Assembly (NCBI GenBank): GCA_903824675.1
Contig: CAIJXV010000047.1
Span: forward strand, 1-64,000
DNA length: 64,000 nucleotides
Direction of reading: 5' to 3'
DNA from: an uncultured bacterium
Lineage (GTDB): Bacteria; Verrucomicrobiota; Kiritimatiellia; CAIKKV01; CAIJXV01
Below the pieces are notes generated by a model that had not been told where the DNA came from, did no database searches, and saw only the letters and a list, made by a program, of their open reading frames with translations. Below are positions 21,150 to 35,853 of the stretch, one piece after another. Each line of letters begins with the position of its first letter. Positions within the stretch are counted from its first letter, which is position 1. The position numbers and the translations under genes are program-made.

Positions 21150-22799
21150 ATGTCCCAGCGAATCGGCGAAATGCTGATTGAAAACGGACTGTTGACCGGG
21201 GCTGGGTTGGCGGAAGCGCTGGCTTCTGCCCGGGCACAGAACGAACCGTTGATCCGGATTCTCTTGCGTGAGGGCCGGGTTCCGGAAGAGCCGTTATTGC
21301 GATTATTGGCCGAGCAACACCATTTACCTTTCGCGCGTCTGCGCGAATGCGAGCCGGAACCCGCGGCGCTGAAGGCGCTGACCGCCCGCCAGGCCGCCCA
21401 TTACCATGTGATGCCCCTGCGCCTCTCCGGGACGACGCTGACGCTGGCAGTGTCGAACCCCTTCGAATTGGGAGCGGTCGAGGATATCGGCACCTTGCAG
21501 GGTTATCGCGTGGAGCGGGTGGTGGCCTGTGCGGGGGAAATCCAGGAGGCCATTCGTCGCCATTACGGGGTTGGCGCCGATACCGTGGACCGGATTTTAG
21601 AGGATTCCGCCGGGCCGGCCGAGGCGATGCCCCAGGAGGAATCCCATGACCTGGAAAAGGCGCTCAGTGACGCTTCGGTTGTCAACCTGGTCAACCAGAT
21701 GCTCCAGCAAGCCATTGCCGAGCGGGCCACCGATCTCCATTTCGAGCGCTATCGCGACGAGATCCGGGTGCGACGGCGGGTGGATGGTCTCCTGCACGAC
21801 ACCCCTGTTCCCACCGCTCTCGGCCAACTCTATCCGGCTATCATCGCCCGGATCAAATTAATGGGCGGCCTCAACATCGTCGAACGGCGGCTACCTCAGG
21901 ATGGGCGCGCCCGTGTCCGCATCGGCGCCCGCGATTACGACCTGCGGATTTCCGTCATGCCGACCCTGCATGGTGAAAACGTGGTCGTGCGCATCCTGCC
22001 CACCCACTTGATGATCCGGTTTGAGGAACTCGGCCTCGGCCCCCGTCATCGCGACTTGCTCGAAACCCTCCTGCGCCAACCGCATGGTATTATTTTCGTG
22101 ACGGGGCCGACCGGGAGCGGCAAGAGCACCACTCTCTACGCATGCCTGAACCGGCTCAATACATCAGAGCGAAAAATTGTCACCATCGAGGATCCGGTCG
22201 AGTATGAATTGAAGGGCGTTACCCAGACCCCTGTTCAGCCGCGGATTGATCTGACCTTTGCCCGTGCGTTAAGAGGTATGCTCCGGCATGACCCGGATAT
22301 CATGATGGTGGGGGAGGTGCGGGATCGCGAGACGGCCGAAATCACCATTCAAACCGCTTTGACGGGGCATCTTGTTTTTAGCACGCTTCATACCAACGAC
22401 GCAGCCGCGGCGGCGGTCCGACTGATTGACATGGGCATCGATCCCTATCTTGTGGCCTCCACCGTGCGCGCATTTATTGCCCAGCGCCTGGTGCGAGTAC
22501 TCTGTCCGGCCTGCAAAGAACCGGCGCCCGCAGATGTCCAGGGACGGATTTTTTATCGGGCGCGCGGTTGTTCACACTGCAGCCAGACAGGATTTTTTGG
22601 GCGGGTGGCAATCTATGAATTCATGATGGTCTCCCGGTCGATCCAGGAGTTGATTTTACACAAAGCTTCGGCGCCCCAGGTCCGCGACCAGGCCATTGCC
22701 CAAGGGATGGTCACCCTCGCCGATGACGGTTGGGAAAAAGTCGCTGCGGGGATCACCACGGCCGAGGAAGTTCTGCGGGTGACCCAGCTTCCCGATTGA
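21150..22799 (+). CDS. gspE: GspE/PilB-type secretion ATPase
   Basis: The 549-residue protein opens with a T2SSE N-terminal (MshEN-type) domain (about 1-150), followed by the hexameric ATPase core. Walker A is GPTGSGKSTTLYACL (Lys325), then the Asp box IVTIEDPVEYE, Walker B IMMVGEVRDRETAEI and the His box (GHLVFSTLHTNDA). Near the C-terminus a tetracysteine motif, CPAC and CSHC, is present, as in GspE and PilB. It drives pseudopilus or pilus assembly at the inner membrane with GspF and GspL. Its position 14 bases behind an F-type beta gene is unusual. Confidence 0.92.
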   Translation: MSQRIGEMLIENGLLTGAGLAEALASARAQNEPLIRILLREGRVPEEPLLRLLAEQHHLPFARLRECEPEPAALKALTARQAAHYHVMPLRLSGTTLTLAVSNPFELGAVEDIGTLQGYRVERVVACAGEIQEAIRRHYGVGADTVDRILEDSAGPAEAMPQEESHDLEKALSDASVVNLVNQMLQQAIAERATDLHFERYRDEIRVRRRVDGLLHDTPVPTALGQLYPAIIARIKLMGGLNIVERRLPQDGRARVRIGARDYDLRISVMPTLHGENVVVRILPTHLMIRFEELGLGPRHRDLLETLLRQPHGIIFVTGPTGSGKSTTLYACLNRLNTSERKIVTIEDPVEYELKGVTQTPVQPRIDLTFARALRGMLRHDPDIMMVGEVRDRETAEITIQTALTGHLVFSTLHTNDAAAAAVRLIDMGIDPYLVASTVRAFIAQRLVRVLCPACKEPAPADVQGRIFYRARGCSHCSQTGFFGRVAIYEFMMVSRSIQELILHKASAPQVRDQAIAQGMVTLADDGWEKVAAGITTAEEVLRVTQLPD

Positions 22800-22812: not shown

Positions 22813-24018
22813 ATGGCGATTTTTAAATATCGTGTCAAAGGCGGACCGAACCGGACGCTGGACGGCGAAATCCAGGCAGATAGCCCGGCGATGGCCATCA
22901 GCCGTCTGGAAGCGCAGGGCTTCACCCCGGTCTGGGTCCGTCCGGCGGATGGATCTGGGATCGGCACGGGATCGGCGTCCCTGCGAATTTCACGTCAGGA
23001 TTTACTGACTTTTACCCGGCAATTGGCAGGTCTGCTCAAGACCGGCGTTCCCATCCTGCGCGCCCTGCGGACACTTCGGGAGCAGACCACCGACCGCAGC
23101 ATGATCCGGATGGTGACGGAACTGGAGGATCGGGTGCGGAATGGGGGGATGCTATCGGACGCATTGGGCGCATTCCCCCGCATTTTCCCGCCCCTGTATA
23201 TTGGAATGATTAGGGCCGGAGAGGCGGGCGGGGCGGTGGATGAAATCCTGCGCCGTCTTGCCCAGGCGCAAGAGGATGAGGATGAAGTGCGCGGTAAGGT
23301 TTTGGCGGCACTGGCCTATCCGGGTTTAGTTTTGGCCTTGGGCGGGGTTAGTGTCGTCGTCCTGTTGACTTATTTCATGCCTAAAATTGCGGCTCTATTC
23401 GTCCATTCCCCACAAGCTCTGCCCTGGCCCACGCGATTCTTGATTGGAGCCAGTGCGCTGTTGGTCCATCATGGGATCTGGGTTTTAGCAGGGGTGATCG
23501 TATTGGGTTTTATCGTGATGTGGATTTGGCGGTCGGCATACGGGCGACAGGCCCTTGATCGCTTTCTGCTCCGGCTTCCCCTGGTCGGCCGGTTTCTCCG
23601 GGATGCCGATCTGGCCCGGCTGGCTCGGACGCTGGCGCTGTTGATCGAGACCGGGGTGCCGATCCAGCGGGCGTTGGATTTGAGCGCGGGCGCTCTGCGC
23701 AATACCGTTTTGCGCCAGGACTTGGCGGCCGTCAGCCGGAACACGGTTCAACAAGGGGGTACTTTGGCGGCAGGCTTGAAGAATCAGCCGCGTATTCCGC
23801 TCTTCCTGACCCATCTAGTGGCGGTTGGGGAGGAGAGCGGGCGACTGGAGGAAGCCTTGACCGAGGCCGCCCGTTTTTACAATCTGGAACTGACGACGGG
23901 GGTTCGCTTGATCACAAACCTGTTGGAACCGTTGCTGATCCTGCTGGTGGGGGCGGTGGTGGGATTTGTCATTTTCGCCGCGCTCCTGCCGATTTTTGAA
24001 ATCGGGCGGGTATTGTAG
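22813..24018 (+). CDS. gspF: GspF/PilC-type inner-membrane platform protein
   Basis: The 401-residue protein has an N-terminal helical lead (MAIFKYRVKGG), then two copies of the GspF domain. The first carries FTRQLAGLLKTGVPILRAL and the second LARTLALLIETGVPIQRAL. Three membrane segments lie near residues 168-190, 215-240 and 370-395. It forms the inner-membrane base of type II secretion or type IV pilus machines and contacts the GspE ATPase. It starts 13 bases after gspE. Confidence 0.92.
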   Translation: MAIFKYRVKGGPNRTLDGEIQADSPAMAISRLEAQGFTPVWVRPADGSGIGTGSASLRISRQDLLTFTRQLAGLLKTGVPILRALRTLREQTTDRSMIRMVTELEDRVRNGGMLSDALGAFPRIFPPLYIGMIRAGEAGGAVDEILRRLAQAQEDEDEVRGKVLAALAYPGLVLALGGVSVVVLLTYFMPKIAALFVHSPQALPWPTRFLIGASALLVHHGIWVLAGVIVLGFIVMWIWRSAYGRQALDRFLLRLPLVGRFLRDADLARLARTLALLIETGVPIQRALDLSAGALRNTVLRQDLAAVSRNTVQQGGTLAAGLKNQPRIPLFLTHLVAVGEESGRLEEALTEAARFYNLELTTGVRLITNLLEPLLILLVGAVVGFVIFAALLPIFEIGRVL

Positions 24019-24067: not shown

Positions 24068-24487
24068 ATGAAAAATCATGAGCAAGCCGGCCGGAAAGGC
24101 TTCACATTGATCGAGTTGATGATTGTGGTGATCATTATCGCCGCGTTGGCGGCGATGGTCGCGCCCCGGTTGATCGACCGATCCGACGAGGCTAAAGCCA
24201 ATATCGCCCGGGGCGATCTCAGTAATCTGGATGTTTCCTTGAAACTATTCCGGCTCGACACGGGACGATATCCGACGACCGATGAAGGTTTGCAGGCGTT
24301 AATGGCCCGGCCCGGCGGGGTGACCCAATGGAAGGGGCCCTACCTCGAGCGAAAGCCGCTTGATCCCTGGAAACGGGCGTATCACTACCGGTTTCCCGGA
24401 GCCCGAAATCCTGGAGGGGTCGACCTCTTTTCCGCCGGATCGGACGGCCAGGAGGATACGGCCGACGATGTCAATAATTGGGAGTGA
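24068..24487 (+). CDS. gspG: GspG, major type II pseudopilin
   Basis: The 139-residue prepilin has the cleavage site and methylation motif KGFTLIELMIVVIII with Glu at mature position 5, a short basic leader, and the GspG C-terminal domain (GRYPTTDEGLQALMARPGG, then WKGPYLERKPLDPW). It ends with the calcium-site sequence DLFSAGSDGQEDTADDVNNW. The ATG at 24068, preceded by AGGAGAG, gives the normal short leader. The calcium site marks it as type II secretion rather than a type IV pilin. It polymerises into the periplasmic pseudopilus. Confidence 0.93.
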   Translation: MKNHEQAGRKGFTLIELMIVVIIIAALAAMVAPRLIDRSDEAKANIARGDLSNLDVSLKLFRLDTGRYPTTDEGLQALMARPGGVTQWKGPYLERKPLDPWKRAYHYRFPGARNPGGVDLFSAGSDGQEDTADDVNNWE

Positions 24488-24497
24488 AGAGGATGAG

Positions 24498-25250
24498 ATG
24501 GTGAAATCGGATTCGGGCGACAAACACGAGGACGGTATGGGCACAAGTTGCCCGTGGCTTTTCGCTCCTCCCTCCCCCCGGTGCGGGGGAGGGCCCGGGG
24601 TGAGGGGGAGCCACCGAAGCGAGTCCCGGGTTTCCAGAGATCCCCCTCACCCTGCCCTCCCCCGCGCCGGGGGGAGGGAAGAACCCGCAACTCCCGCGAA
24701 ACCCGATAAGTTATTGGGGAAGGCTGGGGAAGAGCCGCTGATTTCACTGCGAACCCATCGCTGGCGACCGGCGGACCGCGGGCGGGGTGGAATCCGACCC
24801 TCCCTCTTCCGGGTTAAAGCCGAAGGTTTTCACCCCTGGGGGGACGGATTGCACGCCGTCCGGGGTTTCACGCTCATCGAGGTTTTGATCGGGACGCTGA
24901 TCCTGGCCTCCGCCGGTGTCGCCCTGACGCGGGCATTGGCATCGATTGCCACGACTGATGCCGCTGCGATGACCGTTTTGGCGGAGGGGGAAGCCGTTCG
25001 CGATGAACTGAATCAGGTGGAGACGGACTTGGTGCAGAATCCGGAAGAGCGGCGGCCCGAATTTTTCAATCGGGATCTGCAACCTCGTGACCGGCCGGGA
25101 TGGACGATTCGAACCCGATGTCGGGCCACCGTGCGCGATCCGGAACGGTTGTGGGAAGTTCAGACAACGATTGAGGGGGGCCGCTGGAAGACCTCGACGA
25201 CAACCTGGTTTTATCGGCCGCCGCTGCCGACGGAAGGGGCGGCGCAATGA
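24498..25250 (+). CDS. GspI-like minor pseudopilin with a leader lengthened by a palindromic repeat
   Basis: A prepilin motif (RGFTLIEVLIGTLILASAG) is followed by about 120 residues typical of a minor pseudopilin (GspI/PilV-like). From the operon-proximal ATG at 24498, which has a fair ribosome site 11 bases after gspG, the motif is reached only after about 122 residues. Much of this leader is the translation of a REPIN-like element (24561-24685). Prepilin leaders normally have 5-30 residues. An in-frame TTG at 24849, just behind a G-rich stretch, would give the short leader MHAVRG and is a plausible functional start. Either the gene uses that start or peptidase processing is disturbed. It overlaps the next gene by four bases. 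Confidence 0.7.
   Translation: MVKSDSGDKHEDGMGTSCPWLFAPPSPRCGGGPGVRGSHRSESRVSRDPPHPALPRAGGREEPATPAKPDKLLGKAGEEPLISLRTHRWRPADRGRGGIRPSLFRVKAEGFHPWGDGLHAVRGFTLIEVLIGTLILASAGVALTRALASIATTDAAAMTVLAEGEAVRDELNQVETDLVQNPEERRPEFFNRDLQPRDRPGWTIRTRCRATVRDPERLWEVQTTIEGGRWKTSTTTWFYRPPLPTEGAAQ
24561..24685. repeat. REPIN-like palindromic element, copy 1
   Basis: The left arm, TTCGCTCCTCCCTCCCCCCG..GCGGGGGAGGG, and the right arm, CCCTCCCCCGCGCC..GGGGGAGGGA, are inverted versions of the same GC palindrome about 40 bases apart. The same element occurs at 35626-35752 with different spacer sequence. Two inverted REP-type palindromes around a variable spacer are the layout of a REPIN. It lies inside the reading frame of the pseudopilin gene. 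No REP-associated transposase (RAYT) gene is seen in the window. Confidence 0.75.
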
Positions 25251-25837
25251 AACGACGGCGAGGGCGACGGGGATTCAGTCTGCTGGAAGTTTTGATGGCA
25301 GCTGTGCTGGGGGCGTTGGCCCTACTGGCCGTGATGGGTTTATTCACGGGTGGTTTGCGGGTGGCCGAGCGGCTAAAAACGAGTCGGGAAGATGCCGGCC
25401 TGGCGCTTGCCGGGGAACAGGTGGAGCGGGATTTAAGAAACGCTTTTCCCTTTTATGCGATCGGTTTTGAGGGGCGCCCGGATGGAATGGAATTTGCCGG
25501 ATGGTCGACGGATGTAACGCCCCCTTGTCCCGTGCGGATCCGTTATACCTGGGATGCGCCCCGAGGCGCCCTATGGCGTTCTATATTACTATTTCCCGGA
25601 GAAATCCCGATACAGAAAGATTTACTGATTGAAGGGTTGAGCGAGTGCGAATGGACTTATCTAAATCCAGAATCGACCGGGTCTTCCGCTCCTGTTTGGC
25701 TGACGGGTTGGAGTGACTCAACGCGCCCGCCCCCCGCCGTTCGCTGGAATGTTCGTCGGCCGGGGCCGGATCGGCCGACGCATCGGCGAATTTTGACCTT
25801 GCCCCGGGGGGCGCAAATTTTTTACAGAAAGACTTGA
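25247..25837 (+). CDS. GspJ-like minor pseudopilin
   Basis: The 196-residue prepilin has a basic leader, MKRRRGRRG, and the motif GFSLLEVLMAAVLGALALL with Glu5. A soluble domain with EQVERDLRNAFPFYAIGFEG follows, as in GspJ-type minor pseudopilins, which have long beta-rich C-terminal domains and help start the pseudopilus tip. It overlaps the previous gene by four bases (ATGA). GspJ is the best guess; GspK and GspH are not found. Confidence 0.75.
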   Translation: MKRRRGRRGFSLLEVLMAAVLGALALLAVMGLFTGGLRVAERLKTSREDAGLALAGEQVERDLRNAFPFYAIGFEGRPDGMEFAGWSTDVTPPCPVRIRYTWDAPRGALWRSILLFPGEIPIQKDLLIEGLSECEWTYLNPESTGSSAPVWLTGWSDSTRPPPAVRWNVRRPGPDRPTHRRILTLPRGAQIFYRKT

Positions 25838-27890: not shown

Positions 27891-28946
27891 ATGGCCATGG
27901 CCGACGGACGAAAAACCCTGATGAGAACCACAGCCCGAAATCGAGCAGGCTTCCAAGTGACGGCGTTCAATTTCATGGTCGCAGTGATGGCCGTGGGTTT
28001 GGCGTTCACTTTGATTTGGATTGGCGTCGGGATTCATTGGTCGAGGCAGAACCGACAGGTTGTGCGAAGCGCGGATGAGGTTCGGGCGCAAACCACGGCG
28101 CAATTGGCTTATTATGCCGCCGAGATGCTGACCCTGTCCGCCCAGGTGCAGAACGTTCAGGATGATGTGCGACAGGCCATCGGCCTGGCTCGGGAACAAG
28201 GCGATGCCCGGGTTCGGGACGGGAGCGTACTCAAGAGCGATTTACAGCGATTCGGCGAATGGGTGGAGGCTGGGCAGGCACGTCAGGCGCGAACGATTCT
28301 GGAACTCCAAACCCGGATCGAGGAATTGCAGAAGCAACAAGGCCGGGACAGTCAGACGTGGGAAGCGTGGCGCCAGACGGCGTCGGTATCCGCTACGGGC
28401 GATGCCTCCTTGTCTCCTGTCCGAGCGCCGCAACCGGTGGCTGCATTGACGACCGAAACGCCGACCGAAAGCGTGCCTTCCGCTTCAGCGACCGTAGCGC
28501 GGATCACGTTGAACCTGCCCGGGGGAGACCGGTATGAGGGCGGATTGCGCGATGGTCTTTTTGATGGAGCCGGCGATTTGCATTATGCCAACGGGAACCG
28601 GTATGTGGGATCTTTCCGACTCGGCCGAAAGCAAGGGACAGGCACCTTCACCTTTGCCAACGGCGACGTCTATGTCGGAGATTTTGTGCAGGATCAACGC
28701 CACGGACGGGGAATCTACACCTATCGAGATAAGAGTCGCTATGAAGGGGAATTTCGTAATGGATTGCGCAACGGGAAAGGGCGCTATACGTACAAAACGG
28801 GGGGGGAATATATTGGTGAATTCAAGGACGGAAAGAAGTCTGGTCGAGGGACTCATCTATTCCCGGATGGGACCACAATGGAAGGATACTGGCGTGATGA
28901 TCGGTTTATAGGCGCTACAGTATCCGAAAGCGGTCCAAAGAAATAG
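27891..28946 (+). CDS. Membrane protein with coiled coil and MORN repeats
   Basis: The 351-residue protein has one N-terminal membrane helix near residues 24-46 (FNFMVAVMAVGLAFTLIWIG), a helical stretch to about 160, a low-complexity Thr/Ala linker, and six MORN repeats from about residue 210 to the end (YEGGLRDGLFDGAGDLHYAN, YVGSFRLGRKQGTGTFTFAN, YVGDFVQDQRHGRGIYTY and so on). MORN repeats bind lipids or proteins. It is the last gene of the secretion-like cluster, five bases after the GspM-like gene. It is not a known type II secretion component, so it may be a lineage-specific scaffold. An in-frame ATG at 27897 is an equal start candidate. Confidence 0.78.
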   Translation: MAMADGRKTLMRTTARNRAGFQVTAFNFMVAVMAVGLAFTLIWIGVGIHWSRQNRQVVRSADEVRAQTTAQLAYYAAEMLTLSAQVQNVQDDVRQAIGLAREQGDARVRDGSVLKSDLQRFGEWVEAGQARQARTILELQTRIEELQKQQGRDSQTWEAWRQTASVSATGDASLSPVRAPQPVAALTTETPTESVPSASATVARITLNLPGGDRYEGGLRDGLFDGAGDLHYANGNRYVGSFRLGRKQGTGTFTFANGDVYVGDFVQDQRHGRGIYTYRDKSRYEGEFRNGLRNGKGRYTYKTGGEYIGEFKDGKKSGRGTHLFPDGTTMEGYWRDDRFIGATVSESGPKK

Positions 28947-35566: not shown

Positions 35567-35625
35567 GCACCGGTTCTCCGCTTAAAAAATCAATCGTAGC
35601 GACTCTACTGCGAAGCCGACAGCAT

Positions 35626-35752
35626 TTCGCTCCTCCCTCCCCCCGGCGCGGGGGAGGGTGGGGTGAGGGGAATTCTTTTCGATAAAAAACAGACATTGCT
35701 TGGTCGGTTCCCCCTCTCCCCGGGCCCTCCCCCGCGCTGGGGGGAGGGAGGA
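35626..35752. repeat. REPIN-like palindromic element, copy 2
   Basis: The arms CTCCCTCCCCCCGGCGCGGG and CCCTCCCCCGCGCTGGGGGG, in opposite orientation and separated by about 60 bases of AT-richer spacer, match copy 1 at 24561-24685. Here it lies between recO and ybeY in non-coding DNA (35567-35853), the usual place for such elements. Nothing else was recognised in this gap. Confidence 0.8.
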
Positions 35753-35853
35753 AACAAAAGGGCGAATGATCTTCCACCGTTGGAGGCGGGGTGCCCTCAC
35801 CACGAAATCTTTCGGCCTGGGGGCTGATATCAAAGTGGTTCATGATTACCTGG

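Follow-up and report, generated by a model that had tools for sequence, protein, structure and literature searches.

A pseudopilin gene start apparently rebuilt by mobile palindromic repeats in a bacterial type II secretion operon

Results

A pseudopilin gene preceded by repeat DNA

The window, a stretch of 64,000 nucleotides that forms part of contig C47 in a 4.24-Mb draft genome (G000), carries a type II secretion operon in the order gspE-F-G-pseudopilin-J, with gspE at 21150, gspF at 22813 and, as further members, genes for a PilM/PilN-like protein and a GspM-like protein. After the gspM-like gene lies an ORF with MORN-like repeats (YEGGLRDGLFDGAGDLHYANGNRY..., 27891-28946). The minor pseudopilin encoded downstream of gspG has the GFxxxE motif with a hydrophobic helix, reaches 23.4 bits with the N_methyl model PF07963 (cut-off 21.2) and shows coding-like codon use in its mature part (+0.32 bits/codon). 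With the GspI model TIGR01707 it scores 16.0 bits and its relative in genome G004 40.3 bits, below the cut-off of 44.35, and the gene is therefore called gspI by position only. Between the gspG stop (24485-24487) and the GFTLIE motif at 24864 lie 376 nt, of which about 289 (~77%) are derived from two unrelated repeat families, here elements A and B (Table 1). The ATG at 24498, the TTG at 24849 and the GFTLIE motif, which a sequence-only reading of the locus had singled out, are all located as it had described and share one open frame.

Table 1. Features of the pseudopilin locus and the second long element A copy (window coordinates)
Feature	Position	Strand	Remarks
gspG, major pseudopilin	24068..24487	+	NCBIfam TIGR01710, 136.9 bits; Pfam T2SSG
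ATG24468, in gspG tail, in frame with GFTLIE	24468..24470	+	three-frame comparison with L081-L088; AGGAGGA 11 nt upstream
ATG24498	24498..24500	+	10 nt past gspG stop; Shine-Dalgarno-like sequence upstream
Element A, long form	24518..24720	+	left extension 24518-24555, core 24556-24689, right extension 24690-24720
Element A, inverted-repeat core	24566..24682	.	arms 24566-24606 and 24642-24682
Element B, 86-nt inverted repeat	24778..24863	+	unrelated to element A; diverged copy
GGGGGGA and TTG start candidate	24838..24851	+	right arm of element B; low predicted accessibility
Minor pseudopilin, mature part (GFTLIEV...), gspI position	24864..25250	+	N_methyl; codon use; alignment with relatives
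gspJ-like gene, normal short leader (MKRRRGRR-GFSLLE)	25247..25837	+	N_methyl; T2SSJ below cut-off
Element A, second long copy	35622..35760	-	

Two repeat families within the insert

A whole-genome search gave 111 alignments of element A. Many of these count a single palindrome on both strands, and the actual number comes to about 12 long copies plus tens of halves; no match was found in the other 115 genomes of the class that were searched. The 125-base palindrome of the earlier reading and its copy at about 35626 thus belong to a genuine repeat family. The repeat DNA is larger than proposed, since the flanks beyond the core recur elsewhere, the left one in the C89 copy and the right one in the copies on C108, C46 and C123 (0 to 4 of 500 shuffles matched as well), so that element A extends over approximately 24518-24720, and a second repeat, element B, had been missed altogether. 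The latter fills the stretch up to the GFTLIE codons, which it abuts, and is present elsewhere in the genome in about eight long copies, a few of which, at contig ends, may be one and the same, and in several single arms. The divergence of its window copy indicates that the insert is not very recent.

Inspection of open frames near about 20 copies, made without gene calls, located element A often directly ahead of genes, apparently as 5' untranslated DNA. In most copies most forward frames are open and stops are few in any of them; a stop-free frame through element A was accordingly rejected as stand-alone evidence of translation. On contig C111 (10293-14974) about nine half copies are clustered in mixed orientation, many of them 110-310 nt apart. 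The copy at 1501-1634 on C123 (locus L002) is preceded by an ATG and lies in an open frame that leads, some 35 residues further on, into a signal-peptide-like stretch in a coiled-coil-like protein. On the minus strand of C10 (L027) two half copies in an open frame precede, or sit at the N-terminus of, a zinc-finger anti-sigma-like ORF.

The elements had been described as REPIN-like. The two palindromic units in inverse orientation that mark REPINs and BIMEs are indeed present, but the GTAG/CGTC foot 5' of the palindromes is absent from the window copies (GTAG, where present, lies inside one arm). Three Y1_Tnp matches, two of them above cut-off, were detected in the genome, and the DNA inspected around them, on contigs that end nearby, contains no element A or B sequence. 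The definition of REP sequences asks for a GTAG-type foot and for a link with TnpA-REP (PMC8266576), and as neither was found we do not file the elements as REPINs. The terminal inverted repeats of MITEs are present, as GCGGCTTTTCGCTCC...GGAGCGAAAAGCCGC-like ends in the less decayed copies of element A and as the inverted arms of element B. Rfam returned only chance hairpin matches far under the gathering scores, all but one to microRNA families, and the single terminator-like site (24536-24556) is at chance level.

Related operons with a short leader

Searching with the window GspF as a single query recovered no related loci, and the sister family was found with an alignment. The titles of relatives sharing this operon describe them as PVC group, Verrucomicrobia or Lentisphaerales MAGs or as uncultured bacteria, several of them from lakes; the comparison comprised eight genomes, all of the sister family and none of the window's own. 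Their GspF proteins are 46-51% identical to that of the window and the gene order is collinear. Six of the eight operons have no insert, and in all six the leader is short: in G004, G008, G014, G015 and G012 an ATG within the last gspG codons is followed by the prepilin motif after about 8-11 residues, and in G011 a GTG just beyond the end of gspG would give a leader of about five. Short repeats that read as LNNLTTQQLNN / ITTQQLDN occur just before gspG in G013 (locus L084) and G008 (locus L088); the operon gathers repeats at several junctions.

The conserved overlapping start in the last gspG codons is retained in the window, where ATG24468 is the homolog, within one codon, of the ortholog start in most sister-family operons, with GAC GAT GTC of gspG in the next frame. 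It is this ATG, and not the operon-proximal ATG24498 30 nt further downstream, that corresponds to the start of the gene in the relatives. A long leader of the same kind without a repeat, which would speak against a remodelling by repeats, was not found among the eight operons; the insert is missing from six, and in the remaining two another kind of mobile repeat occupies this site, in agreement with the proposal that a mobile repeat remodelled the gene start.

The collinearity of gspE-F-G-pseudopilin-J with the relatives on both sides of the insert also bears on the question whether a repeat joined two unrelated contigs during assembly; some repeat copies do lie at contig ends in this MAG, but against this gene order we consider such an artefact scarcely credible. 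That the insertion broke the gene, ending production of the pseudopilin and leaving the operon to decay, might be suspected from a large structured insert between start and mature part. Since the mature part is open with coding-like codons, the prepilin motif and the operon genes are intact, and the diverged element B copy shows the insert to be not very recent, we regard this as highly improbable.

A third repeat in the leaders of two relatives

In the two remaining relatives, G013 and G010, this leader is occupied by a third repeat, unrelated to the others and about 300 nt long, which has the inverted ends AAGATTTACCAC / GTGGTAAATCTT and dozens of matches in these genomes; in G013 alone it is bounded by a repeated, duplication-like CGCCTTCAC. 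Related copies of this MITE are also located in the gspJ and gspK leaders of both genomes (the gspI and gspJ copies of G010 are cut by the contig end), and in gspK they lie in frame within a few codons after the start (L205 in G013, L212 in G010). In G013 the leaders of gspI, gspJ and gspK are open and in frame from the upstream start to the mature motif over 117, 113 and 99 codons, with dinucleotide shuffles being stop-free at P = 0.018, 0.0075 and 0.022, respectively. The copies in gspI and gspJ, 81% alike, are perhaps not independent of each other; gspK reads the MITE in a different frame from both, which argues against one lucky frame, and its start still shares an ATGA with the gspJ stop, immediately ahead of the repeat. 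No purine-rich Shine-Dalgarno sequence was seen by eye near the downstream in-frame GTGs of G013 gspI and gspJ.

Leader indels between G013 and G010 are all multiples of three (none in gspK, 30 nt in gspJ, 30 and 6 nt in the part of gspI available), whereas other MITE copies compared with the gspI copy have many non-triplet indels. In the gspK leader the substitutions are spread over the codon positions (12, 12, 7; dN 0.120, dS 0.089); the mature part, in contrast, is under strong constraint (2, 2, 20; dN 0.013, dS 0.315). Judged from these patterns, the leaders of G013 and G010 are probably translated yet unconstrained, having to stay open but being free in sequence. The evidence for their translation is moderate, because the triplet indels are only three and other MITE copies are open into genes that start later. 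A further copy in G010 (L211; C149, 958-1236, minus strand) continues in an open frame into what resembles a signal peptide (SVVSFLFFLSLVGPVLA-AEE) in a seemingly exported protein, and the right end of the copy seems to provide the beginning of that signal peptide.

Candidate starts in the window

Three starts can be considered in the window. Predicted Shine-Dalgarno pairing amounts to -10.3 kcal/mol for ATG24468 (spacing 11), -8.1 kcal/mol for ATG24498 (spacing 9) and -9.3 kcal/mol for TTG24849, at a short spacing of 4 nt, and the leaders would measure 122-132 residues from ATG24498/24468 and six (MHAVRG) from TTG24849, compared to the usual 5-30 or so. From ATG24468 to GFTLIE the frame is stop-free over 132 codons, as are 5.9% of dinucleotide shuffles, and an open stretch that is also in frame is expected by chance in about 0.059 x 1/3 = ~2%; the open frame is only suggestive of translation. 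The earlier observation that the repeat keeps the frame open is correct, although weak alone, with 6-11% of dinucleotide shuffles stop-free in this frame (9-11% from ATG24498). Moreover, open frames run from copies of both repeat types into genes with a natural start downstream, for a HypE-like protein (L005) and a glycosyltransferase (L183), and an open frame through these repeats is thus no proof of translation. The leader lacks gene-like codon use (-0.13 bits/codon), as expected of inserted repeat DNA whether translated or not. If the long leader is translated, peptides such as VKAEGFHPWGDGLHAVR are expected ahead of the cleavage site.

TTG24849 and its Shine-Dalgarno-like GGGGGGA are both within the right arm of element B, so that this proposed alternative start is not an old in-frame start left behind. 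Accessibility was predicted to be lowest here, as the site is inside hairpin B: the mean unpaired value of the region is 0.25, against 0.36-0.56 at seven other gene starts. The predicted fold of 24468-24900 reaches -239.6 kcal/mol (z = -7.2).

Discussion

Taken together, comparison with the sister family supports well that the start of this gene was rebuilt by mobile repeats. On our preferred reading, to which we give somewhat better than even chances, the repeats were inserted in a pseudopilin gene with a short leader and are now read through as a leader of 122-132 residues. The ancestor would have had an ATG overlapping the gspG end and a leader of about 8-10 residues, and elements A and B would have entered between this old start and the prepilin cleavage site, leaving the frame open. 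As the prepilin peptidase removes everything before the conserved F, the insertion would alter only a discarded peptide and may have been tolerated for this reason. The main product would then be a pre-pseudopilin with the long leader, made by ribosomes that arrive from gspG and translate through the repeats, and cleaved by the prepilin peptidase, with TTG24849 in element B perhaps adding a short-leader form (MHAVRG). Both repeats are present in the window, relatives retain the empty state, the frame is open from the homologous start and in-frame MITEs occur in parallel; against the long leader stand its lack of codon bias, the strong predicted Shine-Dalgarno pairing of TTG24849, the very stable hairpin in the path of the ribosomes and the fact that the parallel MITEs lie in genomes of another family.

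The repeats could instead be an untranslated spacer, with the old start cut off and translation starting at the TTG24849 that element B supplied (MHAVR-G). No coding signal is found upstream of 24849, the GGGGGGA-4-TTG arrangement yields a canonical short leader and element A often appears as 5' untranslated DNA upstream of genes; but the codon is predicted to be buried in hairpin B, the older starts are still in frame and open, and the G013/G010 parallels point to read-through. We favour read-through, at a little over one half, over such a restart, at about one third. By analogy with Geobacter PilA (PMC6201914), both starts could be in use together.

The spacer might also be kept for its RNA structure, with hairpin A shielding the 3' end of the gspG mRNA and lowering expression of the minor pseudopilins that follow, which can coexist with the other readings. 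The major pseudopilin is required in excess over the minor ones, which counts in favour of this role. The intergenic structure of malE-malF, which acts in mRNA decay, offers a precedent (PMC5927463), and both the strength of the predicted fold and the presence of another repeat at the same junction in G013 and G010 are consistent with it. Any such palindrome would give a comparable fold energy, however, and six of the eight relatives have no repeat there, their genes overlapping or nearly so; we hold this role to be unlikely, with perhaps one chance in four.

More broadly, and tentatively, since we put it at rather less than even, unrelated mobile palindromes may land time and again in the pseudopilin leaders of this lineage, where in-frame inserts would be cut off by a prepilin peptidase able to take leaders longer than 100 residues, and the repeats would serve as disposable coding sequence. 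If so, selfish repeats can enter the operons of working machines harmlessly, via a removed peptide, and the leader length accepted by the prepilin peptidase and the pilus assembly machine becomes a testable question. Gene-start annotation is unsafe in repeat-rich genomes.

Like the REP/BIME/REPIN elements mobilised with TnpA-REP (RAYT), elements A and B consist of paired inverse palindromic units, occur in many copies and lie mostly near genes (PMC8266576, PMC3733652), but they differ in having no conserved GTAG/CGTC foot, no adjoining RAYT found and fewer copies. Small palindromic repeats fused in frame to bacterial genes were described in Rickettsia and others (PMC2229807, PMC10969869). The Rickettsia palindromic elements (RPE) and other bacterial MITEs are likewise palindromes of ~100-150 bp that are both intergenic and in-frame and read open, and the product is thought to tolerate the repeat, as here (PMC2229807, PMC10969869). 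In contrast to RPE, the target here is a removable pseudopilin leader, two families are stacked in it, and in relatives of the window organism leaders of this kind contain a third family. In Yersinia a YPAL/RU-2 MITE is part of the signal peptide of YPO1552 (PMC2229807), so that there, too, a mobile repeat provides the N-terminal part of a putative exported protein, whereas the window repeats lengthen a hydrophilic leader ahead of an existing prepilin motif. In Geobacter, one pilin, PilA, is made with short (10) and long (29) leaders, which are both cleaved (PMC6201914), although the long one has 29 and not more than 120 residues and involves no repeat. Our literature search found no description of unrelated repeats landing repeatedly in pseudopilin leaders, which does not prove that none exists. 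While in-frame MITEs in proteins are known already, prepilin leaders as their recurrent targets seem to be new.
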